Source: a virus. From it: a DNA stretch of 31,855 bases. The translations under genes and the position numbers were made by a program. This document shows, in pieces, positions 5,148 to 26,776 of this stretch. How positions within the stretch are numbered: the first letter of the stretch is position 1; each line of letters begins with the position of its first letter. The stretch is taken from positions 1 through 31,855 of IMG/VR virus record IMGVR_UViG_3300037882_002249, one strand, 5' to 3'. The notes beneath the pieces were generated by a model that searched no databases, had not been told where the DNA came from, and worked only from the letters and a program-made list of their open reading frames with translations.

Positions 5148-6149
5148 ATGGATAAACGACTGAAAAATCAAGATTATGTTGAAGCCGCGAAAATGCTCAA
5201 CTGCGAAGTTGCAGCATTGATGGCGGTTGCGTCTGTCGAATCCAGCGGACGCGGATTTGATGATGATGGTCGCATCATTTTGCGGTTTGAAGGGCATAAG
5301 TTTCGTGGATTTACAGGCGGAAAATATGACCAATCGCATCCGCATCTGAGTTATCCGTATCGTGTTCAGCACTTGAAAAAGCACGGTTACACGGCGTTCA
5401 GTGAAGCCTTTCAACTTGATCCAACGTCCGCATTATTGGCAACCAGCTACGGATTATTTCAGCCGATGGGCTTTACGCACGAAGAATGCGGCTTTGATGA
5501 TGTTCACGAATTTGTTGAATTTTTGAAAGTTTCGGAACGGAATCAGTTAATTGCGTTTGTCGGAATGGTCAAATTTCGCAAACTCGCGGACGAAATTCAG
5601 CGCAAAGATTGGGCAGGATTTGCGCGAAATTATAACGGCAAAAGTTACAAAGACAACAATTACGATGTCAAAATGGCGAAAGCCTATCAGCGTTTTAATA
5701 AAGTTCAGTTTTTCAAAAATGTAACAGACGAAGAAATTGAGCAAGCCATAGATGTTCCCGCGCCCAGCCAACCAACCGCGCCGGAGGTGGAATCGGGCAA
5801 TCTGCTTCCGGTTTCTTCCACGTTGGAAGTTACTGAAATTGCAACTGAAACAAAAATCATTGCAAATCCTGAACCGGTTGGATTTCGGGCAAAAATCACG
5901 AAAATCTTTACGGCAATTACAGGCGGAACATTTTCGCTGGCGATGCTCAAGGAATGGTTACAGATTCAAATTTCGCCGGAAACCTTAGCAATTTTGAAAG
6001 TTTTGCTTCCGATTATTTTATTAGTCGGCGGGTTGGCGTTAATCGTTTGGTATGTTTCAGAGAAAGTGACTAATTGGAAACTGGTGAAACTTCAAGCGGA
6101 AATTAACTCCGATAAATCACGTCACGATATTGAGGTGCAAAAAAAATAG
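5148..6149 (+). CDS. Endolysin, N-acetylmuramidase family, with C-terminal membrane segment
   Basis: Residues 1-185 match the N-acetylmuramidase (DUF3380) fold seen in phage SPN1S-type endolysins. MAVASVESSGRGFDDDGRII carries the probable catalytic Glu31. RFEGHKF, LATSYGLFQPMGF and FARNYNGKSYKDNNYD are further family landmarks. The enzyme cleaves peptidoglycan between MurNAc and GlcNAc. Residues about 200-240 form a Pro/Thr/Glu-rich linker. Residues about 282-303 (ILKVLLPIILLVGGLALIVW) are one transmembrane helix, followed by a basic helical tail. A C-terminal membrane anchor is unusual, since signal-anchor endolysins have it at the N-terminus. The ATG lies 13 bases after a strong hairpin and has no obvious ribosome binding site. 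Confidence 0.85.
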   Translation: MDKRLKNQDYVEAAKMLNCEVAALMAVASVESSGRGFDDDGRIILRFEGHKFRGFTGGKYDQSHPHLSYPYRVQHLKKHGYTAFSEAFQLDPTSALLATSYGLFQPMGFTHEECGFDDVHEFVEFLKVSERNQLIAFVGMVKFRKLADEIQRKDWAGFARNYNGKSYKDNNYDVKMAKAYQRFNKVQFFKNVTDEEIEQAIDVPAPSQPTAPEVESGNLLPVSSTLEVTEIATETKIIANPEPVGFRAKITKIFTAITGGTFSLAMLKEWLQIQISPETLAILKVLLPIILLVGGLALIVWYVSEKVTNWKLVKLQAEINSDKSRHDIEVQKK

Positions 6150-6443
6150 ATGGAAATCTCTCCGACAATGTTGGCGAGTCTTGGACTTGCGTTAATTGGT
6201 TACATCGTTTGGCAAGTGCGACTCGAATCTAAACTATCTGCGATTAGTGACAGCTTGAAACGAATCGAAACCGAACAAAATGATTCGTGGAAAGAGTTTG
6301 AAAATCATCGGCTGAATGGCGAAATTCATTTTGATAAATCGCACAGCAAAACGATTCAAGCGACAAACGAAAAGGAGTTTGCGCGGTTGGAAAGTGACAT
6401 TAAGGAAATCAAGCAGATGGTGCGTGAACTGATAAAACGATGA
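6150..6443 (+). CDS. Holin-like small membrane protein with coiled coil
   Basis: This 97-residue protein has one N-terminal transmembrane helix (residues about 6-22, TMLASLGLALIGYIVWQV) and a long charged coiled coil to the end. The ATG directly abuts the stop of the endolysin gene, and its stop overlaps the next start by 4 bases. Position between endolysin and spanin-like genes suggests a holin, pinholin or antiholin, but an additional spanin-like subunit is possible. No family is recognised. Confidence 0.6.
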   Translation: MEISPTMLASLGLALIGYIVWQVRLESKLSAISDSLKRIETEQNDSWKEFENHRLNGEIHFDKSHSKTIQATNEKEFARLESDIKEIKQMVRELIKR

Positions 6444-6859
6444 AATTAACTGATTCAATCAAATTATTTTGGGAGCAACAAACCGGCAAACAAAAATTTG
6501 TGGTTATTGGAATCGGCACAATTATTTTGTTCTTAATTTTATCAGGATGGATTGATTCAGCTTATTCGCTTTACCAAGTTCGCAAAGCGGAACGTGCCGC
6601 CGCCAAAGCAAAAATTGAAAGTAATCAGGCACTTGAACGAGCTGCAAAAATTGCTGCTGAAATCAGACAAAAAGAGTTTGAATTAAAAGAGTTGGAGAAA
6701 AAACGAGATGTTAAAAAAACTGAATTGGACAAGGTTCACCGCGAAACTGTTGATGCTCAATCTGATTATGACCGGGCTGTTCGTGAGCCAATCGCCACAA
6801 CTCCAAGCACAGACAAACTCTGCGCCGATCTCGCCAAACTCGGCTATCCGTGCCGATGA
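6440..6859 (+). CDS. Inner-membrane spanin (Rz-like) candidate
   Basis: This 139-residue protein has a short cytoplasmic N-terminus, a transmembrane helix at about residues 20-37 (FVVIGIGTIILFLILSGW) and a long Ala/Glu/Lys-rich coiled coil at about 45-115. Its C-terminal part ends in KLCADLAKLGYPCR with two cysteines. This is the layout of Rz-type i-spanins, which link the inner membrane to an outer-membrane partner in the final lysis step. The distal part of the gene is overlapped in the +1 frame by the next gene from 6708, as in classical nested Rz/Rz1 pairs. The start overlaps the previous stop (ATGA). Confidence 0.65.
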   Translation: MKLTDSIKLFWEQQTGKQKFVVIGIGTIILFLILSGWIDSAYSLYQVRKAERAAAKAKIESNQALERAAKIAAEIRQKEFELKELEKKRDVKKTELDKVHRETVDAQSDYDRAVREPIATTPSTDKLCADLAKLGYPCR

Positions 6860-7190
6860 CGAAGGTTTGCGAAAGGCGTGCGCCGAAGCTGTCGAGGAAC
6901 TCAAAGCGGCTCGAAAATTATTGGAGAAACAATCTGTTGAAATCGAAGTCCAAAAGCGATTACTGGAAATTCAAACAGATATTGAGCAAAAGCTATCGAA
7001 TATCAATCAGTTATCCGAGCGCGAAAAAGAGGAACTGCGAAAGTCCTTAGCAGCCAAAGATCGTGAAATAGATATGCTGGACCGGGCAAACTTAATTTTG
7101 CGAAGCCGACAAATGACAACTTGGAAGGTAATCAAAATTGCAGTTGTCGCCGGAGCTGCCGGACTGATAGTAGGAAAAGTTTTGAAATAA
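6708..7190 (+). CDS. Partner spanin-like protein with signal peptide and C-terminal membrane segment
   Basis: This is a 160-residue protein read in the +1 frame of the Rz-like gene for its first 152 bases. Residues 1-34 form a signal peptide (LLMLNLIMTGLFVSQSPQLQA) with likely signal peptidase I cleavage after Ala34. No lipobox cysteine is present. Residues about 50-130 are a coiled coil, and residues about 141-159 (VIKIAVVAGAAGLIVGKVL) are hydrophobic. GGAG lies about 10 bases before the ATG at 6708. The position is that of Rz1, but Rz1 proteins are outer-membrane lipoproteins. This may be a different solution to outer-membrane disruption, or a periplasmic protein anchored in the inner membrane. 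Confidence 0.65.
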   Translation: MLKKLNWTRFTAKLLMLNLIMTGLFVSQSPQLQAQTNSAPISPNSAIRADDEGLRKACAEAVEELKAARKLLEKQSVEIEVQKRLLEIQTDIEQKLSNINQLSEREKEELRKSLAAKDREIDMLDRANLILRSRQMTTWKVIKIAVVAGAAGLIVGKVLK

Positions 7191-7299: not shown

Positions 7300-7827
7300 A
7301 TGCCAGCAAAATATTCACCTGAAGCAATCGCTTTATGCCGCAAACTTTATATTCAATTTGGCGGAAACGACAAACAAATTGAAAAGGAAATGCGGAAAGA
7401 GTATCCGAGTTGGAGCAAACAAAACCTTTATGCAAAAGGCAATGGTAGTGACTCGCGGTTAGGTTGGATTGTTGAACACGGCTTTGAAAAATCAGCGCAG
7501 TTAGATTTACAAACTAAAATCGGCGCAATCGAAAGTGACGATGAGCGCGCTTACAAAACGATAGTTGAAATTGCCGATAAGTTCAGAACGGCTGCACTGT
7601 CGGGTGATAAAGAAGGTGCGAATCAATATGCAAAGTTTATCACGCTCCAACTTGAATTCAGAAACAAATTGGATTTGAGTCAGTCAAATTTTGAAACCTT
7701 TGTTGAGGCTTGGGAAAGGATAACTTTTTGGGCAAAGGAAATTGATATGAATTTAGCGAAATTATTCTACAAGAATAAGGACGCATTTATTGAAAAAGCC
7801 AAACTGCATTATGGCAAAACAAACTGA
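7300..7827 (+). CDS. Small terminase subunit (putative)
   Basis: This 175-residue protein lies directly before the large terminase gene and overlaps its start by 17 bases. The N-terminal part (PEAIALCRKLYIQFGGNDKQ, then IEKEMRKEYPSWSKQNLYAK, residues about 7-47) looks like a helix-turn-helix for DNA recognition. The rest is helical and would serve oligomerisation. In Mu-like phages the small terminase (gp27-type) occupies this place and selects packaging substrates. Identification rests on HTH character and position. The segment encoding LDLSQSNF contains a 20-bp sequence repeated exactly in the tape measure gene. Confidence 0.65.
   Translation: MPAKYSPEAIALCRKLYIQFGGNDKQIEKEMRKEYPSWSKQNLYAKGNGSDSRLGWIVEHGFEKSAQLDLQTKIGAIESDDERAYKTIVEIADKFRTAALSGDKEGANQYAKFITLQLEFRNKLDLSQSNFETFVEAWERITFWAKEIDMNLAKLFYKNKDAFIEKAKLHYGKTN
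7673..7692. repeat. Palindromic 20-bp repeat, copy A
   Basis: ATTTGAGTCAGTCAAATTTT is present here and, exactly, at 26595-26614. A one-base variant (GAGTGAGTC) appears twice at 31645-31693. The core ATTTGA-GTCAG-TCAAAT is an inverted repeat. This copy is inside the small terminase gene and encodes LSQSNF. Confidence 0.6.
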
Positions 7828-9679
7828 TGAACAGCTATTTTCCCGGATGGATGCGGCGGTTGAACACGCCAGCAATGAAATGGCTGAGGAGTTTGACGGA
7901 TTCGATGCAGACTTAGCACCGCTCAAATGGTGGCGTGAAAATTGGCACGATCCCAATGTTAAAAAATTGCTCATTGAAAAATATGTTCGCATTCGCAGCA
8001 AACATAAAGAAAACGAAATTATTCCCTTCAGGTTGAATGATGTTCAAAACGATTATCTTTTTCGCCGGACTCGCCGGAATGTTGTTTTGAAATTTCGGCA
8101 AGGTGGATTTACCACGCTTGAACTGATTTTGAATTTGTTAGAGGCAATTCTTTTCTCTGGTCGCAACGTCCGGCTCGTGCCGCACGATCCCGATGCTGAA
8201 GACGAATTTTGGAAACGGCTCGACACGATGTATATCAATCTGCCGTCCAAGTTTCGGGCAACAACCCGGTATTACTCCAAAGAGTTAATTGAGTTTCGGG
8301 ACATTGCCAAAGGCGTGACAGATTCGCAGATTACGTCTTTGAATCCACGTCCGGGACAGGAAAATAAACTGCGGTCGCAAACAATTACGAATGCTCATTT
8401 AACTGAGATTCCTTTTTGGGTTGGAGATCAAGAGTTAGTTTTTACGGCGTTGATGGCAGCCGCCGAAAAAGGAACTATCACGCTCGAATCAACTGCCGGT
8501 GGTAAAGAGAAATTTTATTTTTATTACCAACAGGGCAAACAGAAAAAAGGCGGTTGGACTTCTTTCTTTTATGAATGGTGGTGGTTACGAGAGAACAGAG
8601 TTGATGGTGCGCGATTTGCCAAACTTGAAAATGAGTTTGTTTTGCTCGGACCATCTGAAAGCATTCTGGATATTTGGAATCCGAATGCAGAGACCGATGA
8701 CGAGAAACTTCAGAATCGGGTTCGATTGAATGAGCGCAAAGTTAAATCGCCTGAAAAGGACGAGACCGGAAAGCCGAAAAATAATGAAGACGATGAAGTT
8801 TTTGTTTGCGAAAAAATTCTCGCTCATTTGAAAAGGAAAGGCTATGCCGACAAAAACGCGGGTTGGCATTGTTGGGAAGTTGCTGAGTATTTAGCTTGGC
8901 GCAGATTGAAAATTGAGGAACTTGGCGGGAACGACAAAAAACGTGGCTTGAAGATTTTCAAGGTCGAGCATCCCGAAAATGATTTGGATTGTTTCGATTC
9001 TTCAGGTCGCACGGTCATCAGCCCGGTCTATTTGAAAGTAACTTGTGAACCGCAAGCTGAAGCGATTTCGGGGCGTGACTATTTGATTTCGGCTGATACC
9101 TCGCTTGGTCAGGAAAATTCTGATCCCGCAGCGATTGAAGTCATTGACCTGTTGACCGGGCGACAAGTCCATTCGGAAGAGTTGAAAATTAGTCCTGATT
9201 TGTTGGCGTTTCGTTTGGTCGAACTTTCGGAGATTTACAACTACGCAATTATCGCGGTTGAAAGAAATAACACCGGGATTGCAACGCTGAAAAAATTAGA
9301 AGAGTTGATTGAACCCGAAAGGATTTATAAAGAGTTGACCGTTGCCCAACGCCGAGCGGTTGAGGATGGAAAGAAGACACTTGACGAGGCAATGGCAGAG
9401 GCAGAATTTGGGATTGCTACGACAACAGCAAATAAATCGCTTTATGCAATCTATTTAGAACGAGCGATTAGAACAGGTGAAATAGGTCTTTCAAATCAAG
9501 AATGGTGCGATCAGGCACAGACAGTTGTTTGGTTATCAAACAAGGAATGGGGAGCAATGCCGGGCTTTCACGATGATAGATTTATCGCGCTTGCCATCGC
9601 CAATTATGTGAGAGTTGCCAAACTTGGAGAGTTTGTTGGGTTTGTTGGGGTCGCTCCCGAAACAGGATACGCGAGGTAA
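7811..9679 (+). CDS. Terminase large subunit (TerL)
   Basis: This 622-residue packaging motor protein starts at ATG 7811; an upstream TTG at 7790 is less likely. The ATPase half shows LKFRQGGFTT (about residues 93-102), a P-loop variant without the usual lysine that is common in RQ-G-x-T type terminases. It also has a Walker B-like TITNAHLTE (191-199) and LESTA (225-229, coupling motif). The nuclease half shows ISADTSLG with Asp429, AVERNNTG with Glu484, and FHDDRFIALAIAN with Asp588/589, the expected acidic metal-binding set of the RNase H-like domain. It drives DNA into proheads and cuts it. The small subunit upstream and portal downstream give the standard packaging order. Confidence 0.93.
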   Translation: MAKQTDEQLFSRMDAAVEHASNEMAEEFDGFDADLAPLKWWRENWHDPNVKKLLIEKYVRIRSKHKENEIIPFRLNDVQNDYLFRRTRRNVVLKFRQGGFTTLELILNLLEAILFSGRNVRLVPHDPDAEDEFWKRLDTMYINLPSKFRATTRYYSKELIEFRDIAKGVTDSQITSLNPRPGQENKLRSQTITNAHLTEIPFWVGDQELVFTALMAAAEKGTITLESTAGGKEKFYFYYQQGKQKKGGWTSFFYEWWWLRENRVDGARFAKLENEFVLLGPSESILDIWNPNAETDDEKLQNRVRLNERKVKSPEKDETGKPKNNEDDEVFVCEKILAHLKRKGYADKNAGWHCWEVAEYLAWRRLKIEELGGNDKKRGLKIFKVEHPENDLDCFDSSGRTVISPVYLKVTCEPQAEAISGRDYLISADTSLGQENSDPAAIEVIDLLTGRQVHSEELKISPDLLAFRLVELSEIYNYAIIAVERNNTGIATLKKLEELIEPERIYKELTVAQRRAVEDGKKTLDEAMAEAEFGIATTTANKSLYAIYLERAIRTGEIGLSNQEWCDQAQTVVWLSNKEWGAMPGFHDDRFIALAIANYVRVAKLGEFVGFVGVAPETGYAR

Positions 9680-9776: not shown

Positions 9777-11300
9777 ATGAACATTTGGGAAAGATTAAAA
9801 ATTGCATACGCCACATTTCGCCGCGTCGGTGGAATCGAAATTCCTGACGGCGACGGTCAAATGGGCAGAAGTTCGGATGAGAATTTCGGCAATAATCTCA
9901 GCTCTATTTTGCACAAATATCAAACTGTCAATCCAATCATTGATTTTGCAATGCTGGCAGTTCTCAAAAAATTCTACATCTACAATCCTGATGTTTCTCA
10001 ATTTGTTTCCAATCTGCAAAATCTCGCCAACAACGGACATACGATTTCGGTTGAGGCAAATAGCGAATCAGTTGCCGAAAATGCCTTGGCTAGATTAAAC
10101 GAATCTGCCACGCGAATTTATCGAAATGGTGCTGGTGTGGATGGTTTAATCAATTCGTATCTCGCACAAATTGCGTGGAGCGGTGCATTGAGTTCTGAGG
10201 ATGTTGTGAATTTTGCTGGTCGCCGAGTTGAACAGGTTGTCTTAGTCCCGGTTGAATCAATCCGATTCAAATACGATGCGGAAAATTCAACTTATCAGCC
10301 GTATCAGCGGTCGACAGATTTTAGACGAACTAATGTTCAAGACTTAGGTTTGATTCCGTTGTCGCCGGAAACCTATCGTTATTCGGCACTGCAAACGGTT
10401 GAAAATAATCCCTACGCCAAGCCTCCAGCAACGGCAGCGGTTGATGCGATTATGCAAGGTCAAGAGCCGATGATGCAGAACATTCAGTATATCGCGCAAA
10501 AATTTGGATTGTTGGGATTGGTGACAGCATCGGTCCAACCGCCAAACAAAAAGCCGAATGAGACGGATGCAGAATATCAGTCACGGGCAAAATCTTATCT
10601 TTCAATGATTGCAAAGTCTTTGGAAGGTCAATTTTCAAAAGGATTATTGGTTTCGTTCCGTGATCAGAAAATTGAGCATACAAATATTTCCGAAGGTGCA
10701 AGCGGAGTTTATGACCTCAATCGAATTTCGGAAGAGCAAGTTATGTCAGGTTTAGCAATGCAACCAGCGTTTTTCGGACGCACGGATTCGACCACCGAAA
10801 CATTTGCGGATGTGGTTTATAACCTGTTGCTGGCACAGGTTCACAACATTCAACGATTGCCGAAACGCCGAATGGAGCAAACTTATCGGTTAGATTTACG
10901 GCTTGAAGGGATTCAAGTTGATGGCGTTTCGCTGAGTTTCAACAAACCATTTTCGCGCAACTCGCTGCAAGCTGCACAGACCGAAGAAATTGAAGTCCGA
11001 ATTGTCTTGGAAAAAGTTAAAAGCGGATTGATTTCAGCGGATGAGGGAGCGCAAGAGTTGGGTTACGAATCTTGGCACGATGAGGAATTGGTTAATGCCG
11101 ATGTCAGTTTGGCGCAAGCGTTAAGTGCCATTCGGACAGGCAAACGCACCAATAGTTTCAAATTCAGTTTTAATCGGACAGAGCAGAAATATAAATTTCA
11201 GCCAACGGTTATCGAACTTTTACCGGAAATTAAAGAAAAACAATTACCCGGTAATGTTTTACCAATAAAAAAAAAGACTCTGCAACGAGTCTCAAATTAA
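9777..11300 (+). CDS. Portal protein
   Basis: This 507-residue protein directly follows the terminase and precedes the MuF minor head protein, the standard place of the portal (Mu gp29-type). Typical features are the long mixed alpha/beta body and the central part where QPAFFGRTDSTTETFADVVY lies in the region that forms the stem and clip helices (residues about 326-345). A C-terminal charged tail is rich in Lys and Arg. It would form the dodecameric ring through which DNA enters the head. The last codons ATA AAA AAA AAG form a slippery sequence. A -1 shift there continues into the MuF frame, so this protein probably exists both as a 507-residue form and as the N-terminal part of a fusion. Confidence 0.88.
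   Translation: MNIWERLKIAYATFRRVGGIEIPDGDGQMGRSSDENFGNNLSSILHKYQTVNPIIDFAMLAVLKKFYIYNPDVSQFVSNLQNLANNGHTISVEANSESVAENALARLNESATRIYRNGAGVDGLINSYLAQIAWSGALSSEDVVNFAGRRVEQVVLVPVESIRFKYDAENSTYQPYQRSTDFRRTNVQDLGLIPLSPETYRYSALQTVENNPYAKPPATAAVDAIMQGQEPMMQNIQYIAQKFGLLGLVTASVQPPNKKPNETDAEYQSRAKSYLSMIAKSLEGQFSKGLLVSFRDQKIEHTNISEGASGVYDLNRISEEQVMSGLAMQPAFFGRTDSTTETFADVVYNLLLAQVHNIQRLPKRRMEQTYRLDLRLEGIQVDGVSLSFNKPFSRNSLQAAQTEEIEVRIVLEKVKSGLISADEGAQELGYESWHDEELVNADVSLAQALSAIRTGKRTNSFKFSFNRTEQKYKFQPTVIELLPEIKEKQLPGNVLPIKKKTLQRVSN
11270..11291 (+). other. Candidate -1 programmed frameshift site (portal to MuF)
   Basis: The heptamer A AAA AAG at 11270-11276 is in the correct zero-frame register (AAA AAA AAG codons of the portal). 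It lies at the end of a nine-A run. A hairpin GACTC-TGCAAC-GAGTC (11276-11291) follows at once. After a -1 slip the next codon is GAC at 11276-11278, which is in the open frame of the minor head protein and continues to 12244. This is the same heptamer used by E. coli dnaX. RNA polymerase slippage on the A9 run is an alternative mechanism. The hairpin starts without the usual spacer, which weakens its role as a stimulator. Confidence 0.65.
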
Positions 11301-12244
11301 CGGAGGAAGAAATAGATGCGATTCTTGACAAATTTATCTACAAATATTTTAGGGCGATTACCAGCTATGCTGATGATGCTCTGCGTCTTGTCATTGGGCG
11401 TTTGGGCGAATACCTACGCGACCACAACGAAACAGATTTCAAATCAGGCGAAGATTTCGCCGACAAATTACTTGACGAACTCGGAAAATCGTTTGAAAAC
11501 GGCTGGAGTTCAACCCGTGCAGTTCAGGCAATCAAGCGAACTACCAAATCAATTTACGAATTTTTCAGACTTAAAGACACCACGCCTTTCGGGGACAAAT
11601 CGCCAATCAAACTTAAATTGGGCGGTGCAGATACCAAGTCAATTAAATTCATTGGAGACCTTGACCATTTCTACTTCAGCAAATTCGCAAAAAATACGAG
11701 CGAACCGCTACGGAAGTTTTTTGTCGAGCAATACTTTGAAAATGGTGCAGCACTTTTCGGGCGCGAATCGTCGGAAGAACTTGAGGAATTTCGCAAAGTC
11801 GCGGGTGAACGGCTCAAGAATCTTACCGATAGACAAACCAAAACTATTCTTCAGACAGCAGTGCAAAGGGTGCGGAATTGGGCGCATATCGGCAGTTTGT
11901 CCCAAGCGCGAATAAGATATGCGCGGTATGCGGCAACGCTCGACAGCCGGACAACGGAAATTTGTCGCGGAATTGACGGCAAAAAAATAAAAGTCGGCGT
12001 TGCCCAAACTGCGATTGAACGGTTGAACCAACTCGAACCCGGCGAATTTGCGCTGGAGCTTTACGAATCCAACGCCGCAAAAGCATTCCGCAAAGACCCG
12101 GTTGGCTGGCTCGAAACGGAAATTGACGAAAACGGTTTTGTCAGCGAGGAAATGACCAAAAACGGTTTAGCACTTCCGCCGCTGCATCCGAATTGCCGGA
12201 CGCGATTGGAAGGTTTGATTAAAGGAATTGATGAGGATGCTTAA
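11276..12244 (+). CDS. MuF-type minor head (head morphogenesis) protein, probably made by -1 frameshift from portal
   Basis: The frame is open from 11255 and reads coding-like already at LKLTEEEIDAILDKF, well before any ATG. The C-terminal domain has ARYAATLDSRTTEICRGIDG and ALPPLHPNCRTRLEG, the Cys/His signature of Mu gpF-type (SPP1 gp7) head morphogenesis proteins. No in-frame ATG or GTG exists until after the conserved N-terminal helices; the first TTG is at 11402. Expression is best explained by -1 frameshifting at 11276, giving an 822-residue portal-MuF fusion. Alternatives are a rare ATA (11312) or ATT (11321) start behind GGAGG at 11302-11306, or a sequencing indel. Role: minor capsid protein near the portal, aiding head assembly or being injected with DNA. 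Confidence 0.85.
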   Translation, partial: DSATSLKLTEEEIDAILDKFIYKYFRAITSYADDALRLVIGRLGEYLRDHNETDFKSGEDFADKLLDELGKSFENGWSSTRAVQAIKRTTKSIYEFFRLKDTTPFGDKSPIKLKLGGADTKSIKFIGDLDHFYFSKFAKNTSEPLRKFFVEQYFENGAALFGRESSEELEEFRKVAGERLKNLTDRQTKTILQTAVQRVRNWAHIGSLSQARIRYARYAATLDSRTTEICRGIDGKKIKVGVAQTAIERLNQLEPGEFALELYESNAAKAFRKDPVGWLETEIDENGFVSEEMTKNGLALPPLHPNCRTRLEGLIKGIDEDA

Positions 12245-12827: not shown

Positions 12828-14072
12828 ATGAAATTAGCCAACGGAATCGAAATTGTAAATCTTGCCCAAAACAAGGCGACAGTTACTTTGCAAGCTCCAA
12901 CTCGCAAGGCGGAAGTGACGTTTGATAAAAATCTGCCAAACCGCGTCCGCGACATTATGCAAAGTTCGCAATGGGCGCAGATGGATAAAGATTTCAATTT
13001 CAATTTCCGAACTGTCTCCGACATTTTGCCCAAAGATGAGGATTATATTTTCGTCAATTTTCGTGCGCTTTCAAAAGTTGTAGTCGAAGGACATTGGCTT
13101 GATTGGACACGCGAAGGAGTCTTGGAAGAAGGCGTTGCCCTGCTTGAAGGTGCAACCGTTTATGCCAATCACGTTTTCTGGAATATCTACAATTGGCTCG
13201 GCTCGGTCAGTCAGACCGCTTGGGATTCGAGCGGTGAAAAGTTTGGCGGAGTTCCGGGGATCAATGCGACTTATAAAATTGATGCGCTGGTCAATCCGAT
13301 TATTGCCCGTGGTTTATTGATGAAACCTCCGGCAATTCATTCAACCAGTTTGACCGTGTTGTTTGAATTTGAGTTTTCGCACCCGGACATTGCCACCGAA
13401 GATCGTTGGAAGTTTTTCAGGCTGTTAGGCGAAGAAGTTGACGGGCATATCGTCCGCTTGATTGTCACGAAAATTCACGAAATTTGGGAAGCGAGTTTGG
13501 TTTATCAAGGCGCAGACAGATTGGCAAAACAGCCGAAAGGCAATAACGATGAAGATTTTGATGATGAAAGTTTAAGCGCGGCAAGATTATCGTTGCCGGC
13601 AAATTCAAACGAGGAGAAAAAGGAAAAAACTATGAAACTAACCAAAGAGAAAAAATCAGAACTCGGCATTGAGTTTGACGGCGATGATGTTCCCGAAACG
13701 GAAATTCTGAAAGCTGCCGAAAAACTCGCTGCCAAAAACCAACCTTTCGCGGGTGTTAATTTGGCAGAGTTACAGAAGCAAGCAGCGCAAAGCGAAACGC
13801 TTTTGACAGCGAAACGCGGCGAAGTCAAACGACTCGCAACAATCGCTGAACTTGGCGCAGACGAAGGCGACTTGCCCGAAATTGTGAGCCAACAAATCGA
13901 AGGAGCAGACGCGGAAATGCTCGTCAAACTCGAAGATTATTACCGCAAAAAAGCGGCGGATAAACTCCCGACAGGTCGAACCTCTCAGGAAAATTCAGCC
14001 GAAATTGAAACCGCTGGCGGCATCGAAACCGCTTCGCATTCGACAGTTCCAAACGTAGGACTGCACGACTAA
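12828..14072 (+). CDS. Prohead protease fused to scaffold (Mu gpI-like)
   Basis: This 414-residue protein begins on the base after the KTSC gene. Residues 1-240 look like the phage prohead serine protease of the Mu I/U35 type. Candidate catalytic His115 lies in TVYANHVFW and candidate Ser174 in AIHSTSLTVLFEFEFSHP. The remainder (about 265-395) is a Lys/Glu/Ala-rich helical scaffold with ELQKQAAQSETLLTAKRGE, ending in a low-complexity tail. It would fill the prohead, then cleave itself and other head proteins. An in-frame internal start at 13632 would make free scaffold, as Mu gpZ is made from within gpI. Confidence 0.8.
   Translation: MKLANGIEIVNLAQNKATVTLQAPTRKAEVTFDKNLPNRVRDIMQSSQWAQMDKDFNFNFRTVSDILPKDEDYIFVNFRALSKVVVEGHWLDWTREGVLEEGVALLEGATVYANHVFWNIYNWLGSVSQTAWDSSGEKFGGVPGINATYKIDALVNPIIARGLLMKPPAIHSTSLTVLFEFEFSHPDIATEDRWKFFRLLGEEVDGHIVRLIVTKIHEIWEASLVYQGADRLAKQPKGNNDEDFDDESLSAARLSLPANSNEEKKEKTMKLTKEKKSELGIEFDGDDVPETEILKAAEKLAAKNQPFAGVNLAELQKQAAQSETLLTAKRGEVKRLATIAELGADEGDLPEIVSQQIEGADAEMLVKLEDYYRKKAADKLPTGRTSQENSAEIETAGGIETASHSTVPNVGLHD
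13632..14072 (+). CDS. Nested scaffold protein (internal start of the protease gene)
   Basis: ATG 13632 is in frame with the protease gene. It is preceded by GAGGAG (13611-13616) and AAGGA (about 8 bases upstream), the strongest ribosome binding region within the gene. The product (146 residues, starting MKLTKEKKSELGIEFDG) is the helical scaffold domain without the protease. Lambda Nu3 and Mu Z are made the same way. The short form would be the abundant scaffold and the long form the minor protease. Confidence 0.65.
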   Translation: MKLTKEKKSELGIEFDGDDVPETEILKAAEKLAAKNQPFAGVNLAELQKQAAQSETLLTAKRGEVKRLATIAELGADEGDLPEIVSQQIEGADAEMLVKLEDYYRKKAADKLPTGRTSQENSAEIETAGGIETASHSTVPNVGLHD

Positions 14073-14537: not shown

Positions 14538-15728
14538 ATGAGTTACGGATTAAAAGGAAATGTCAGACAAATCATAGCTGCAATGGATGTCATTCGCGCT
14601 ACTCAAGGCGAAAGAACTATCAGCCAACACATTGCGGAAACCTATAAAGATGCAGATGGCAACCCGCTTTCGATTAACCATCTTTACGCGGAGTTGGGAT
14701 TGAATCCGCATCGGACGACAGTTGAACAGCTTTATGCTGATAGCGATTCCCGCTCGCTGATGTCGGAAATTATTCGGGATGGTGTTCGTCGCGGAATGGG
14801 AATGACAGCTCGTGAGCAAATGAGCCGCGCTCGCGCTTCAATGGCTGGAACATTCGACAACGGCAGTCAACGCTTTATGTCACGCGAAGTTTTTCTTGAC
14901 CCGGTGATGCGCGGTGCAGTTCAAGCGACGTTTTACCCGGATTTAATTATCCGAGAGGAGCAAGTTGCCCAGCCAACTGTGACAATGCCAAAAATCGAAT
15001 TGAGCGATGCGGCGATGAAAGATTCGGCTGAAGCGGCAACCATTGAGGAAGGCACAGTTAGCTACGGTTCAAAGGATGTCAAACTCAAAAAGAAAGCTCG
15101 CGGATTCAAAGTTACTTACGAAGCAATCCGTTACAATTCGTTGAGTTTGGCGCAAATCTTCTTTGAAGATGCCGGGCGAATCTTAGGTCATACCTTAAAC
15201 GGAATGGCGGTGGATGCAATCATCAACGGTGATCAAACCGATACTTCAGAATCAGCCGATGTCATCGGCGTAGATGATACCAATAACGGAATTACCTACA
15301 AAGATTTGGCTCGTGTAGCAATTCAATTTGCTTTGCTAGGGCGGGTTGGACTCCAAGCTATCGGCAATGCAACTTCTGCATTGAACTATGTAACGTTGGC
15401 GGAAATGAAACAAAAATACGCGGGAAATGCGATTTTGAACACAATGCTCAAATCGCCGTTGACCTTTCCCGAAGATTTGTATGTTTCAACTAAAGTGACA
15501 GGTTCAAAACTTGTTATCCAAGACCCATCGGCTTCGCTGGTTCAATTAACCGCTGCGCCGTTGCTGGTTGAAACTGACAAAATCATCAGCAAACAAATCG
15601 AAGAAGCAATCGTTTCGATTACGACCGGCTTTGCAAAAATCCAACGCAATGCGTCAGTAATTATTGATCCTGCGCTCGCTTTCTCCGGCAATGGATGGGC
15701 TACTTGGATGAATCCTTACAGCGAATAA
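14538..15728 (+). CDS. Major capsid protein
   Basis: This 396-residue protein follows protease, scaffold and decoration genes and has AAGGAG before its ATG. It has an N-terminal helical segment rich in Arg and Met (residues about 80-105), which may be removed by the prohead protease. Then come VEQPTVTMPKIELSD-type beta segments around about 135-160 and KKKARGFKVTYEAIRYNSLS (residues about 177-196), reminiscent of the E-loop and spine helix of HK97-fold capsid proteins. The C-terminal part carries GFAKIQRNASVIIDPALAF. It would be the most abundant virion protein. Confidence 0.88.
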   Translation: MSYGLKGNVRQIIAAMDVIRATQGERTISQHIAETYKDADGNPLSINHLYAELGLNPHRTTVEQLYADSDSRSLMSEIIRDGVRRGMGMTAREQMSRARASMAGTFDNGSQRFMSREVFLDPVMRGAVQATFYPDLIIREEQVAQPTVTMPKIELSDAAMKDSAEAATIEEGTVSYGSKDVKLKKKARGFKVTYEAIRYNSLSLAQIFFEDAGRILGHTLNGMAVDAIINGDQTDTSESADVIGVDDTNNGITYKDLARVAIQFALLGRVGLQAIGNATSALNYVTLAEMKQKYAGNAILNTMLKSPLTFPEDLYVSTKVTGSKLVIQDPSASLVQLTAAPLLVETDKIISKQIEEAIVSITTGFAKIQRNASVIIDPALAFSGNGWATWMNPYSE

Positions 15729-22758: not shown

Positions 22759-22788
22759 ATAATACAAATAAATGACAGGCGAGCGCAA
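22759..22788 (-). promoter_or_regulatory. Putative moron promoter overlapping the tape measure start
   Basis: On the minus strand TTGCGC (plus-strand 22783-22788) and TATTAT (plus-strand 22759-22764) are separated by 18 bases and point to the secreted-protein gene. The -10 ends only 6 bases before the ATG, so the message would be nearly leaderless. The promoter lies partly in the first codons of the tape measure gene. Confidence 0.35.
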
Positions 22789-25700
22789 GATAAAATTAGT
22801 AATTGATGTTAAGGATGATGAAGTTAAACAGGCTTCGGCATCAATGTCGAGACTCGAAAAAGCGACTAAGGATGTTGGAAAATCGGGAAATGACCTCAAA
22901 AATGTTGAATCAGGAATTGGCGGAATTACCTCAAGTATCGGAGGTTTAGCAGCGGGTTTTAATCCTATAACAGCTATCATTACGGCTGCCACAGTTGCTA
23001 TCACCGCTTTTTCAGTAGCGGTCATCGCTGCAACTAAATATGCCTACGATTTTGCAAAATCTTTTGCTGAATATGGCTCTGAAATTGGCAAGGCTCAAAA
23101 AATAACTAATCTAACTACTGAAACTTTATCAGCACTAAATATTGAAGTTGGAAATACAGGTGGTAATTTTGAGTCAATAATTGATTCTGTCAAAGATTAT
23201 GCTACCAAAATCGCCGATGCCGCGCAGGGTTCAAAAGAAGCCCAAAAAGATTTGAGCCGTTTAGGAATTGATGGGAAAAAATACATCAATGATTTTGAAG
23301 GTGCGCTGAATGCAGCGTTTCAGGCAATCAACAAATTACCTCCCGGGATCGCACAAATGAGTGCAGCAACCAAACTTTTTGGTGAGGAAGGAAGCCGTGA
23401 ATTGCTTCCGATAATTGCCAAAGCAGACGGCGACATTTCAAATTTGATTAAAACGGCGAAAGAATTTGGTTTGGTTCTGTCTCAAGAAGATGTTCAGGCA
23501 TCACGCGAGTTCAACAAAGCAATGAAAGAAGTTCAAATGGAACTTCGTGGAGTCGGTTTAACTTTGGGACGTGAATTGTTGCCTGTTGCAAGAGATGTTT
23601 TCAGAGAATTTAGCGGATTTTATAAGGATAATAAAGAAGAAATAAAACAATGGGGTGTTTATGTTGCTGATGTCTTCCGTGCAGTATTTAGCGAAATCAA
23701 GACAATTATTAACTATGTAAAAGTGAATTGGGAAACAATCTCGCAAGGATGGCAAATAATGTCGGGCATTGCTAATTTCGCTGCGTCGGGAGGCAAAGGC
23801 GGTCTTGTAGTGTTGCCGACTTCAGGTAATTCACTAGGAGAAAGTAAAAGACCATCTGCGGATAATTCAATTCAATTTCAGTCTTGGGATTCATCAAAAG
23901 TTAAATCATCTGACAGTTATTTCAAACCTGACGCGGGAAAAGAGAAAAAATTTCAACTTTCTTCGGAAGGGCAAGCCTTCGTAAATGCAGGTAAGACTTT
24001 AGGCGTGTCGCCATTGGATTTAGCAGTTTTGACAGGCTTTGAATCTGGTGGAACTTGGGATACTTGGAAGAAAGGTCCGACTACCAAATGGGGTGTGCAT
24101 CGTGGCATCTTTCAAGCCGGTGAGCCTCAACAACGTGAATATGGAGTATTTAAAGGGCAATCTTTATCTGACCAAATTGAAACTTCACTTGTTAAATATA
24201 TTCGGGATGTATTTAACAGGTCAGGTTTTACTACTCAAGGTGCATCTCAGATGCAATTATATTCAGCTATTTTAGCGGGTGGAGTAGGTGAGAAATTCTA
24301 CGATAGAACTGATAAAAACGGGACATCACCACGCAATGCAATGAAAAATCCGAATATGATTGCAATGAGACAAAAAGCAGTTAATAAATTTTTTGGCGGT
24401 TCTATTGCAAACATTCCCGAAAAAGAAGGTTCACGAGATTATGAATCTCAAATGAAAAACATCATTGACCTTGATAATCAAGCCTTTGCTCGTGAAAAAT
24501 TTGAAAAGTTGGCAGCTTTTTACAAATCAACTTCAGCGATTACACCGTCGGCAGAATTTATCAAATCTTATACAGATTTTTTGAACAAAGATATTCCGCT
24601 TGATCGAAACAAATTATCAACTTTTGATATTAAAAAACAGTTTGAAAAAACATCTAGCGATGTAACTACTCAGGGGCAAACAGTTTCTGAGGTTACTGAA
24701 TCGCGCCTAACTTTAGGTGGCGAATATCTTAAACAATTAAACGAATCGTTAGAAACTGAAAAGAAGATTGAGCAAGTTGTTGCTTTACGTGAAAAACACC
24801 AAGATATTATCAATTCTTTGGTTAAAGATGCGCTTGCTGATCAAGATTTATTGCTTGAAAATCTTGGCAATCAATACGAAACCCAGCAACGGCTTTTTGG
24901 TGATGAAACTTTCCGAAAATATGAGCAAGATATTGCAAATTTAGAGGAAAAACTTTCGCTTGAGCGTGAAATTTTCGACCTTGAAAATGATATTGCCAAT
25001 TCCGGTTTGAACGATTCATTGAAAATAAAAGCAGCGTATTTGCAAGATATTATCAGTTTGCGGGAGCGTGAGGTTGACGCAGTAATGCAAATCAACCGGG
25101 CGGAATTAGAATTGTCGCAAAAGGGGAATTTTAGCCAGAATCAAGCAAATGCAGCAATTCTTGATCACTTGAATTCGGTTAAGTCTGTGACAGAAATTTA
25201 TGCTGATGCACGAATCAATATTATTGATAATTTTTGGAATGGCATTGATTCAGCCGTTGGAAGTGTAACTAAAAAACTTGGTTTTTTTGGTGGAATAATC
25301 AAACAACTGATTGTTGACTTTATCAAATTAGCCACGCTCAAACCGCTCCAAAATATCTTTGCTCCGGGGGCATCGGGCGGAACGTCTCAATCTTCGGGCG
25401 GTGGTTTCTCAGTCGGCAACCTTTTACAAGGATTTTTAGGTGGAAATGGCAGTCAGTCATCAGGCGGATTTTCATCGCCCGGATTCGCCGGAGGAAGTCT
25501 AAATATTCCCGGTAATTTTTCATTCGCCGGAGCTGGTGGAACGGGCGGATTGAATCTCGGAGGTGCCAACTTTAGCGGTTCAATCAGCAGATTTTTTGGC
25601 GGTGGTTCAACAGGCACAATTGGTGCAAACGGTGGATTCAATGTGAGCGGTTCATCATTAGGTGGACGAAATGAGTTTGCTGGAACAATCGCAAATCAAG

Positions 25701-26776
25701 CGACTTCACAACTTTCAAATTATTCAAAATTGAAAGGTTTATTTTCTGCAAAAGGAATTGGCGCACTTGCGCCCGGTCTCGGATTAAGTTTAGGTGCTTT
25801 GGCTGGCGGTCAATCTCCAACTGGTCAAATTTTGGGCAGTATTGGCGGACTCGCGGGTGGACTTTTGGGCGGAATTGGAACTGGAGCATTAAGTGCATCA
25901 ACGTTATTCGGTGGAGTTTTTGCCTCTGGCGGAGCTTTATCAATCGGCGGACTTTCGGCAGCAATGTCGGCAACCGTTGTCTTAGCACCGATTGCCGGAG
26001 CATTGTTAATTGGCTCGTTACTGCTCAAACGTAACGCAGCTCGCAGACGTGATGAAAAAACTCGTGATGCTCTGATGGTTGACACGCTCTCCGAACTCAA
26101 CAAAATCAAAGCCGAAATGGAAGCCGCGAAGCCTGGAACAAATATTCAAGGTTTATTAGACCAAACGGGTGAAATTTCGGGCGAATATTTCAAACAGGCG
26201 AATGCGCTGAAAGACAAGAAAACGCGCGGAATTGCTATGAAAGATGGAAACGAGCGCGTAGGAGTTGTTCCGCCTAGTTCAGACCCAAGATTTCAAAACG
26301 CCTTGACCAATCAAATTTACGCACTTTCGGAAGCTGCGAAAGCAAAACAGCAAGTGCGTGAATTTGCGGCGGAACGCGACCGCAGACTATTGCCGGAGTT
26401 CGCAATGGGCGGACATATTCCCGCCAAAAACGGTGGACATTTAGCGGTTGTCGGCGAGGGCGGATTTGATGAGTTTATCCTTTCGACCGATCCGAAATAT
26501 GCGAATCGGACGGCATCACTTTTAGCTAATTTTATCGAGCGGATGAATTATAAAGTTCCCAGATTCGAGACGGGCGGAATTTCAAGTTCAATCAATTTGA
26601 GTCAGTCAAATTTTACCGCTTCGTCATCAAACCCGGTTATCAATTTTTCACCTAATTTAAGTCTATATCTTAATCAAAAAGAAGATGGAACTTTTGAAGG
26701 TTTTTTGGAGTCGGACGATGGCAAACGGAAAATTATCAAAATTTATAAAGATGCGAGAAAATTGAGAGATATTTAA
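22772..26776 (+). CDS. Tape measure protein with embedded muralytic domain
   Basis: This 1334-residue protein sets tail length. The N-terminal 330 residues contain coiled-coil and hydrophobic helices (ITAIITAATVAITAFSVAVI, residues about 66-85). Residues about 395-545 resemble a transglycosylase or lysozyme-like domain with AVLTGFESGGTWDTW (candidate catalytic Glu424), GIFQAGEPQQREYGVFKG and LYSAILAGGVG. Residues about 660-830 are coiled coil; about 860-1000 are Gly/Ser-rich; hydrophobic stretches near 1010-1095 include VVLAPIAGALLIGSLLL. The C-terminal part, FAMGGHIPAKNGGHLAVVGE, is common near TMP ends. The muralytic domain would help DNA cross peptidoglycan during infection. Confidence 0.9.
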   Translation: MTGERKIKLVIDVKDDEVKQASASMSRLEKATKDVGKSGNDLKNVESGIGGITSSIGGLAAGFNPITAIITAATVAITAFSVAVIAATKYAYDFAKSFAEYGSEIGKAQKITNLTTETLSALNIEVGNTGGNFESIIDSVKDYATKIADAAQGSKEAQKDLSRLGIDGKKYINDFEGALNAAFQAINKLPPGIAQMSAATKLFGEEGSRELLPIIAKADGDISNLIKTAKEFGLVLSQEDVQASREFNKAMKEVQMELRGVGLTLGRELLPVARDVFREFSGFYKDNKEEIKQWGVYVADVFRAVFSEIKTIINYVKVNWETISQGWQIMSGIANFAASGGKGGLVVLPTSGNSLGESKRPSADNSIQFQSWDSSKVKSSDSYFKPDAGKEKKFQLSSEGQAFVNAGKTLGVSPLDLAVLTGFESGGTWDTWKKGPTTKWGVHRGIFQAGEPQQREYGVFKGQSLSDQIETSLVKYIRDVFNRSGFTTQGASQMQLYSAILAGGVGEKFYDRTDKNGTSPRNAMKNPNMIAMRQKAVNKFFGGSIANIPEKEGSRDYESQMKNIIDLDNQAFAREKFEKLAAFYKSTSAITPSAEFIKSYTDFLNKDIPLDRNKLSTFDIKKQFEKTSSDVTTQGQTVSEVTESRLTLGGEYLKQLNESLETEKKIEQVVALREKHQDIINSLVKDALADQDLLLENLGNQYETQQRLFGDETFRKYEQDIANLEEKLSLEREIFDLENDIANSGLNDSLKIKAAYLQDIISLREREVDAVMQINRAELELSQKGNFSQNQANAAILDHLNSVKSVTEIYADARINIIDNFWNGIDSAVGSVTKKLGFFGGIIKQLIVDFIKLATLKPLQNIFAPGASGGTSQSSGGGFSVGNLLQGFLGGNGSQSSGGFSSPGFAGGSLNIPGNFSFAGAGGTGGLNLGGANFSGSISRFFGGGSTGTIGANGGFNVSGSSLGGRNEFAGTIANQATSQLSNYSKLKGLFSAKGIGALAPGLGLSLGALAGGQSPTGQILGSIGGLAGGLLGGIGTGALSASTLFGGVFASGGALSIGGLSAAMSATVVLAPIAGALLIGSLLLKRNAARRRDEKTRDALMVDTLSELNKIKAEMEAAKPGTNIQGLLDQTGEISGEYFKQANALKDKKTRGIAMKDGNERVGVVPPSSDPRFQNALTNQIYALSEAAKAKQQVREFAAERDRRLLPEFAMGGHIPAKNGGHLAVVGEGGFDEFILSTDPKYANRTASLLANFIERMNYKVPRFETGGISSSINLSQSNFTASSSNPVINFSPNLSLYLNQKEDGTFEGFLESDDGKRKIIKIYKDARKLRDI
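26595..26614. repeat. Palindromic 20-bp repeat, copy B
   Basis: This is identical to 7673-7692 and lies near the 3' end of the tape measure gene, where it encodes LSQSNF in the same reading phase as copy A. The one-base variant occurs at 31645-31693. Confidence 0.6.

Follow-up and report, generated by a model that had tools for sequence, protein, structure and literature searches.

Recoding is known to extend several phage structural proteins, as in the tail chaperones gpG/gpGT and in the capsid or tail extensions of lambda, SPP1, T3, A2 and PSA. Portal rings, which form the DNA entry and exit vertex, are usually treated as assemblies of twelve identical subunits. The dnaX gene yields tau and gamma by ribosomal −1 frameshifting in E. 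coli and by transcriptional slippage on a nine-base run in T. thermophilus, and nine-A runs slip efficiently in vivo, as described in a review on recoding (PMC5009743). Portal and MuF are joined by gene fusion in Microbacterium phage clusters EA and EB (PMC7302621). The best-studied MuF protein, SPP1 gp7, is portal-bound, with 1–2 copies per capsid, and SPP1 virions without gp7 are ~25% infectious (PMC5576092, PMC6316719). A literature search, with most subscription journals outside its reach, returned no recoded portal-MuF case, and portal proteins are unmentioned in the GeneTack survey (PMC3711429) and in the portion of the recoding review that the search covered (PMC5009743). Programmed frameshifts are already known from structural genes of phages, and the portal-MuF junction proposed below would be new among them.

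The sequence analysed here, referred to as the window, is the whole 31,855-nt IMG/VR virus contig IMGVR_UViG_3300037882_002249. In its head module (Table 1), the match to the portal profile covers residues 1–454 of 507, and the frame directly downstream of the portal scores above the curated PF04233 cut-off. The portal 3′ end reads ATA AAA AAA AAG ACT CTG CAA CGA GTC TCA AAT TAA. The first ATG, GTG or TTG of the MuF frame is TTG 11402, ~38 codons into the conserved domain, in agreement with the original prediction that this frame lacks an ordinary upstream start. The heptamer named in that prediction, A AAA AAG, is found in portal register at 11270–11276 within the A9 run, which also contains A AAA AAA (11267–11273), and a −1 slip gives the expected 822-residue product from 500 portal-frame and 322 MuF-frame residues. 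Very probably, −1 recoding at this run attaches MuF to the C-terminus of a minority of the portal subunits. Most translation would end at the portal stop shortly past the run and give plain portal, while a minority would continue in the −1 frame to give portal-MuF; MuF would not be made as a separate protein. The portal ring of 12 subunits would then be mixed, bearing one or a few MuF domains directed towards the head interior, and slippage in roughly one of every ten transcripts or translations would provide one or two MuF domains per ring. We infer that recoding sets the ratio of portal to portal-MuF.

Table 1. Features of the window discussed in the text (positions in the 31,855-nt contig)
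Feature	Position	Strand	Description
Terminase	7790–9679		Head module
Portal gene	9777–11300	+	507 aa, frame 0; phrog_3753 portal, E 4.7e-92
MuF frame	11255–12244	+	−1 register relative to portal; PF04233, E 2.5e-8
A9G slip site	11267–11276	+	ATA AAA AAA AAG in portal frame; nine A's at 11267–11275, then G 11276
6-bp hairpin	11275–11292	+	AGACTC-TGCAAC-GAGTCT; begins on the run's final A, no spacer
MuF part of portal-MuF fusion	11276–12244	+	322 residues after −1 shift, stop included
Portal stop codon	11298–11300	+	TAA, 23 nt past the A-run
Shine-Dalgarno GGAGG	11302–11306	+	Of the nested ORF; also encodes Glu-Glu of MuF
Nested ORF	11316–11915	+	Portal frame, 199 aa, overlaps MuF; N-terminus hydrophobic, signal-peptide-like
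Head maturation protease	12828–14072		Head module
Major capsid protein	14538–15728		Head module
Tape measure	22772–26776		Head module

As for dnaX, the arrangement proposed here from sequence would yield two products in a set ratio from one gene by slippage on an A-run, and its relatives, like the dnaX homologues, have either a heptamer with a hairpin or a nine-base run on its own. The window shares traits with both types: the A9 run provides, at the point where the frame changes, the homopolymer of at least nine A or T that is typical of T. thermophilus dnaX, and A AAA AAG is an in-register X XXY YYZ heptamer of the type found in E. coli dnaX and insertion sequences, but the downstream structure at ~5–9 nt spacing that belongs to the latter type is absent. 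Unlike in dnaX, the shift lengthens the protein and affects a phage portal gene; the truncating polarity of dnaX is shared only by two relatives, L183 and L045 (see below). In common with the phage tail chaperones and capsid extensions, a minority of a structural protein would gain a C-terminal extension by recoding, but other genes are involved, and here the length of the run suggests slippage by the polymerase. The Microbacterium EA and EB fusions share with the proposed product a single portal-MuF polypeptide, but they are ordinary in-frame fusions in which all portal subunits would bear MuF. SPP1 gp6 and gp7 likewise place a portal-bound MuF inside the head, in a low copy number that matches the proposed mosaic ring, but they are encoded by separate genes and reach their stoichiometry by binding, where we propose recoding.

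Relatives were gathered mostly through portal protein similarity and in some cases through MuF, and the A-run was never a selection criterion. Loci with identical portal ends were counted once, which leaves a few close pairs (L177/L179, L049/L053). The resulting 96 non-redundant loci, whose portals all belong to this family, fall into four arrangements: MuF overlaps the portal end in the −1 frame in 31, lies with the portal in one ordinary reading frame in 37, is in the +1 frame in four (L175, L176, L180, L181), and is undetected by profiles beside the portal in 24, where detection in distant loci relies on profiles built for this analysis. In several of four main-clade loci of the last group (L012, L013, L015, L022), the next large gene after a gap is a protease- or capsid-like ORF. 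The recurrence confirms, at the level of sequence, that the −1 arrangement is real and beyond chance. The single-ORF form in 37 relatives shows that such a fusion protein occurs naturally, and it bears out the earlier statement that natural portal-MuF fusions occur.

On a tree of 93 portals, built by a quick search and containing long branches, the −1 state requires seven changes (at least six forced by the starred branches) and the fusion state eight (at least seven forced), and the +1 loci form a single clade. Fused and frameshifted forms interleave: L183 groups with L177, L179 and L195, L154 with L062, and L051 with L055. Judged from this tree, the two forms interconvert. Such interleaving would be predicted if both forms function through portal-MuF and the frameshifted lineages make plain portal in addition. 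The −1 relatives are metagenomic or lie in bacterial genome assemblies, and no cultured phage of this group was found. The nearest portals of cultured phages (~20–29% identity) lack the −1 arrangement, and the two nearest cultured relatives, the fecal phages MT121964 and MT835790, have neither a portal-joined MuF nor an A-run. Within the window's clade, four relatives reside in assemblies labelled Acidobacteria or Pyrinomonadaceae, and a wider scan of Acidobacteriota genomes added one locus, L144; these occurrences place the hosts among the Acidobacteriota, and we regard the family as phages of soil Acidobacteria and their relatives. Elsewhere in the window, a repressor-like helix-turn-helix gene (1984–2385) adjoins a metalloprotease-like gene (2395–2838), which suggests that the phage is temperate. 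Just after an endolysin gene (5148–6149), a 139-aa ORF (6440–6859) and a 160-aa ORF (6708–7190) overlap by ~150 nt in different frames, and the pair possibly represents lysis genes.

A run of A7–A10 is located at the portal 3′ end of all 31 loci with the −1 arrangement (A9 in 19, A10 in ten, A7 in two), always with an in-register A AAA AAN heptamer, and it is kept in relatives down to ~30–45% portal identity. Runs of nine or more A's are present at two of the 37 fusion junctions (L045 and L183) and at none of the 24 loci without MuF; the association with the −1 arrangement has a Fisher p of 3e-19, which ignores relatedness, as do the other p-values given here except where changes on the tree were counted. 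In the four main-clade portals without MuF named above, the longest portal-end run is at most four A's. Synonymous codon choice, given the portal proteins, predicts ~4.6 loci with at least nine A's, compared with 29 observed, and 320 kb of the same loci contain just six other runs of this length on the coding strand. The codon that precedes the Lys codons ends in A in 27 of the 31 loci (~6 expected). ATA, GTA and CTA are rare codons in these genomes, yet the wobble A is kept, while the portal tree implies at least 15 changes of the residue at this position. In the four exceptions (L018, L064, L144, L195), the phase of the run differs but its length is still A9 or A10, indicating that it is the length of the run that is conserved, not its codon phase. 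The check suggested with the original prediction, conservation of the heptamer in homologues, turns out favourably in that the run is present in all 31 loci, but the feature kept is a stretch of at least nine A's, and not a heptamer plus hairpin. In five loci (L036, L064, L144, L167, L195), a stop codon in the MuF frame abuts the 5′ side of the run and the portal frame ends a few codons 3′ of it, which places the shift inside the run.

The MuF side of the junction agrees with this picture. The MuF-frame peptide SLKLTEEEID..IL is conserved from just 3′ of the run, so that coding does precede the first start codon as had been proposed, and nearly all of the 31 loci lack a start before this conserved N-terminus; the exceptions are L009, L023 and L038, which have a TTG 9–10 nt 3′ of the run. 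The anticipated synonymous suppression is also present, with an observed/expected conservation of 1.54 in MuF columns 1–25, compared with 1.16 for the whole of MuF and 1.12 for the portal. Within MuF, it peaks at the slip site, the Shine-Dalgarno sequence and the ATG, stays at ~1.2 for ~100 codons and then falls to ~1.1. In L183 (3845–3854, A10) and L045 (6354–6362, A9), the run lies in frame inside a single-ORF portal-MuF fusion, where a slip would lead to a stop after 2–7 codons and thereby to plain portal, the reverse of what is proposed for the window. These comparisons establish the two frames, the required shift between them, the conservation of the run and the existence of natural in-frame fusions.

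Seven bases in register suffice for ribosomal slippage, and for slippage by RNA polymerase the run must roughly match the length of the 9–10 bp RNA–DNA hybrid. For the A9 and A10 loci, including the window, we favour with modest confidence the insertion of an extra A by RNA polymerase as the main route, because length is kept over phase, spaced hairpins are few, and in-frame A9 or A10 runs are found in L045 and L183. At these loci, a −1 slip of the ribosome on A AAA AAA or A AAA AAG is a somewhat less likely alternative, or may contribute. The hairpin announced in the original prediction is real in the window (z = −4.2 for a 27-nt stretch compared with dinucleotide shuffles), but no spacer separates it from the run, and it lies too near for a canonical frameshift stimulator. 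It recurs in most of the window's subclade and is absent from other A9 loci, most of which have no hairpin at all (mean z −0.4). On the minus strand, the hairpin and T9 (11274–11293) read as an intrinsic terminator, a shape that recurs in the same subclade. An Rfam search of the junction gave only sub-threshold noise.

A purely ribosomal −1 frameshift on A AAA AAG, of the dnaX or insertion-sequence type and with the hairpin as stimulator, is the best of the rival explanations, but a somewhat doubtful one. The in-register A AAA AAN in all 31 loci is what it would demand, and it fits the two A7G loci well. In L167 (5750–5780), the stem-loop GCCCG-CAU-CGGGC begins 5 nt past A AAA AAG, and in L055 (6080–6115) a less clearly spaced stem-loop lies ~3–4 nt downstream (z −5.1 in a 45-nt stretch). 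As their hairpins lie near or at the usual distance, L055 and L167 more likely use ribosomal frameshifting with a hairpin downstream. Applied to all loci, however, a ribosomal mechanism leaves the extension to A9–A10 in 29 of 31 and the phase changes unexplained; moreover, the window hairpin touches the run, most other A9 loci are hairpin-free, and no Shine-Dalgarno-like stimulator was found upstream in the window. Neither slippage mechanism accounts for the hairpin beside the run in the window's clade. With the two refinements of run length and hairpin distance, the predicted −1 recoding that joins portal to MuF is supported overall.

The region just past the portal stop contains a second putative coding element. 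A Shine-Dalgarno sequence and ATG (11302–11318) open a 199-codon ORF in the portal frame, and 20 main-clade loci including the window have such a nested frame, of 199–304 codons. Compared with synonymous shuffles of the MuF codons, the open length has p 0.01 in the window and p ≤ 0.02 in 17 of the 20 loci, a level reached in the same relative frame by none of 92 control genes (0/20 portals and 0/72 others). The hydrophobic N-terminal peak exceeds that of stop-free synonymous shuffles in all 20 loci (p ≤ 0.05), with a mean z of 3.57 against 0.15 for control blocks, and the N-termini are often signal-peptide-like, e.g., MKFSSGSFRTIFAGLALILMMAFAVPWTSYA in L007. Synonymous shuffling thus rules out an accidentally open portal frame over MuF, a result that applies to the main clade, with the distant loci and the sister loci L016, L023 and L064 set apart; in these three sisters, the ATG is absent and the frame is closed. 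The nested-frame proteins are 17–44% identical to the window copy, and their pairwise similarity has a mean z of 2.6, compared with 0.9 for the same frame of the portal and 2.2 for the other MuF frame. Such low similarity suggests that the sequence of the product is only loosely constrained. The GGAGG motif could be regarded as a mere by-product of the Thr-Glu-Glu codons of MuF, but the open frame and the hydrophobic segment argue against this. The nested ORF is likely to be a real overlapping gene in the window's clade, and our best guess is that it specifies a membrane or exported protein. A ribosome-binding site that serves the nested frame may be a reason why MuF lacks a start of its own.

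An independent start of MuF at ATA 11312, ATT 11321 or TTG 11402, the first two using GGAGG 11302–11306, is highly improbable. A good Shine-Dalgarno sequence is indeed available, but it serves ATG 11316, an ATG that the 20 open-frame loci have and that is missing in L016, L023 and L064, where the nested frame is closed. Furthermore, the conserved SLKLTEEE sits 5′ of the candidate codons, and the A-run and the 37 single-ORF fusions would be left unexplained. Still less probable is a sequencing or assembly indel in the homopolymer that masks an ordinary in-frame fusion. Homopolymers are error-prone and in-frame fusions are known among the relatives, but the −1 arrangement is repeated across 31 non-redundant loci that come from independent assemblies and differ in their diverged flanks, four of these being bacterial genome assemblies (L029, L031, L036, L144), A9–A10 is kept against codon usage, and the MuF-frame stop lies just 5′ of the run in five loci. 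As a general explanation, the indel is refuted. The weakest proposal, a minus-strand transcription terminator with an incidental −1 overlap, matches the pattern of that strand but is silent on the missing MuF start and on the run tracking the −1 arrangement, and as the reason for the run it is ruled out by several hairpin-free A9 loci with the −1 arrangement, hairpins being missing at most A9 loci outside the window's subclade.

In the four loci with MuF in the +1 frame, the portal and MuF frames meet at AGG TAT CTT (L175 5981–5995, L176 5951–5965, L180 5909–5923, L181 3872–3884), and codon usage gives log10 P −8.9 for this motif in all four. It is preceded by CGG or AGG in three, and CTT is followed by T in three. 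A stop directly after CTT is found only in L180 and L181 (TAG and TGA, respectively). The MuF frame of L180 opens just 21 nt upstream, without a start codon, and the corresponding region of L181 contains AGGTATCTTTGA. The +1 frameshift site of bacterial prfB combines a Shine-Dalgarno-like AGG(N) just 5′ of CUU with a following U and a stop (PMC5009743). The sites described here would join portal to MuF, and in L175 and L176 the CTT lacks an adjacent stop. In these four loci, the +1 junction resembles a release-factor-2 site. The last viral scan yielded no further relatives of this kind.

A wider reading, which we offer tentatively, is that of a three-product locus, in which polymerase slippage on A9 would set the number of MuF-bearing subunits among twelve, and unslipped transcripts would allow re-initiation at ATG 11316 to give the nested exported or membrane protein. 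Different lineages would have converged on this outcome by four routes: polymerase slippage, ribosomal −1 frameshifting, RF2-like +1 frameshifting, and a fused gene that slips back to plain portal.

Automatic annotation overlooks both the portal-MuF fusion and the putative nested gene. The apparent polymerase slippage adds to the routes by which phages obtain mixtures of structural proteins. If the proposal is correct, recoding of the portal gives the ring a built-in asymmetry and fixes how many MuF domains lie at the DNA entry/exit vertex. It would explain how an internal protein of one to two copies is counted into the head, and would represent a natural route to loading low-copy cargo.
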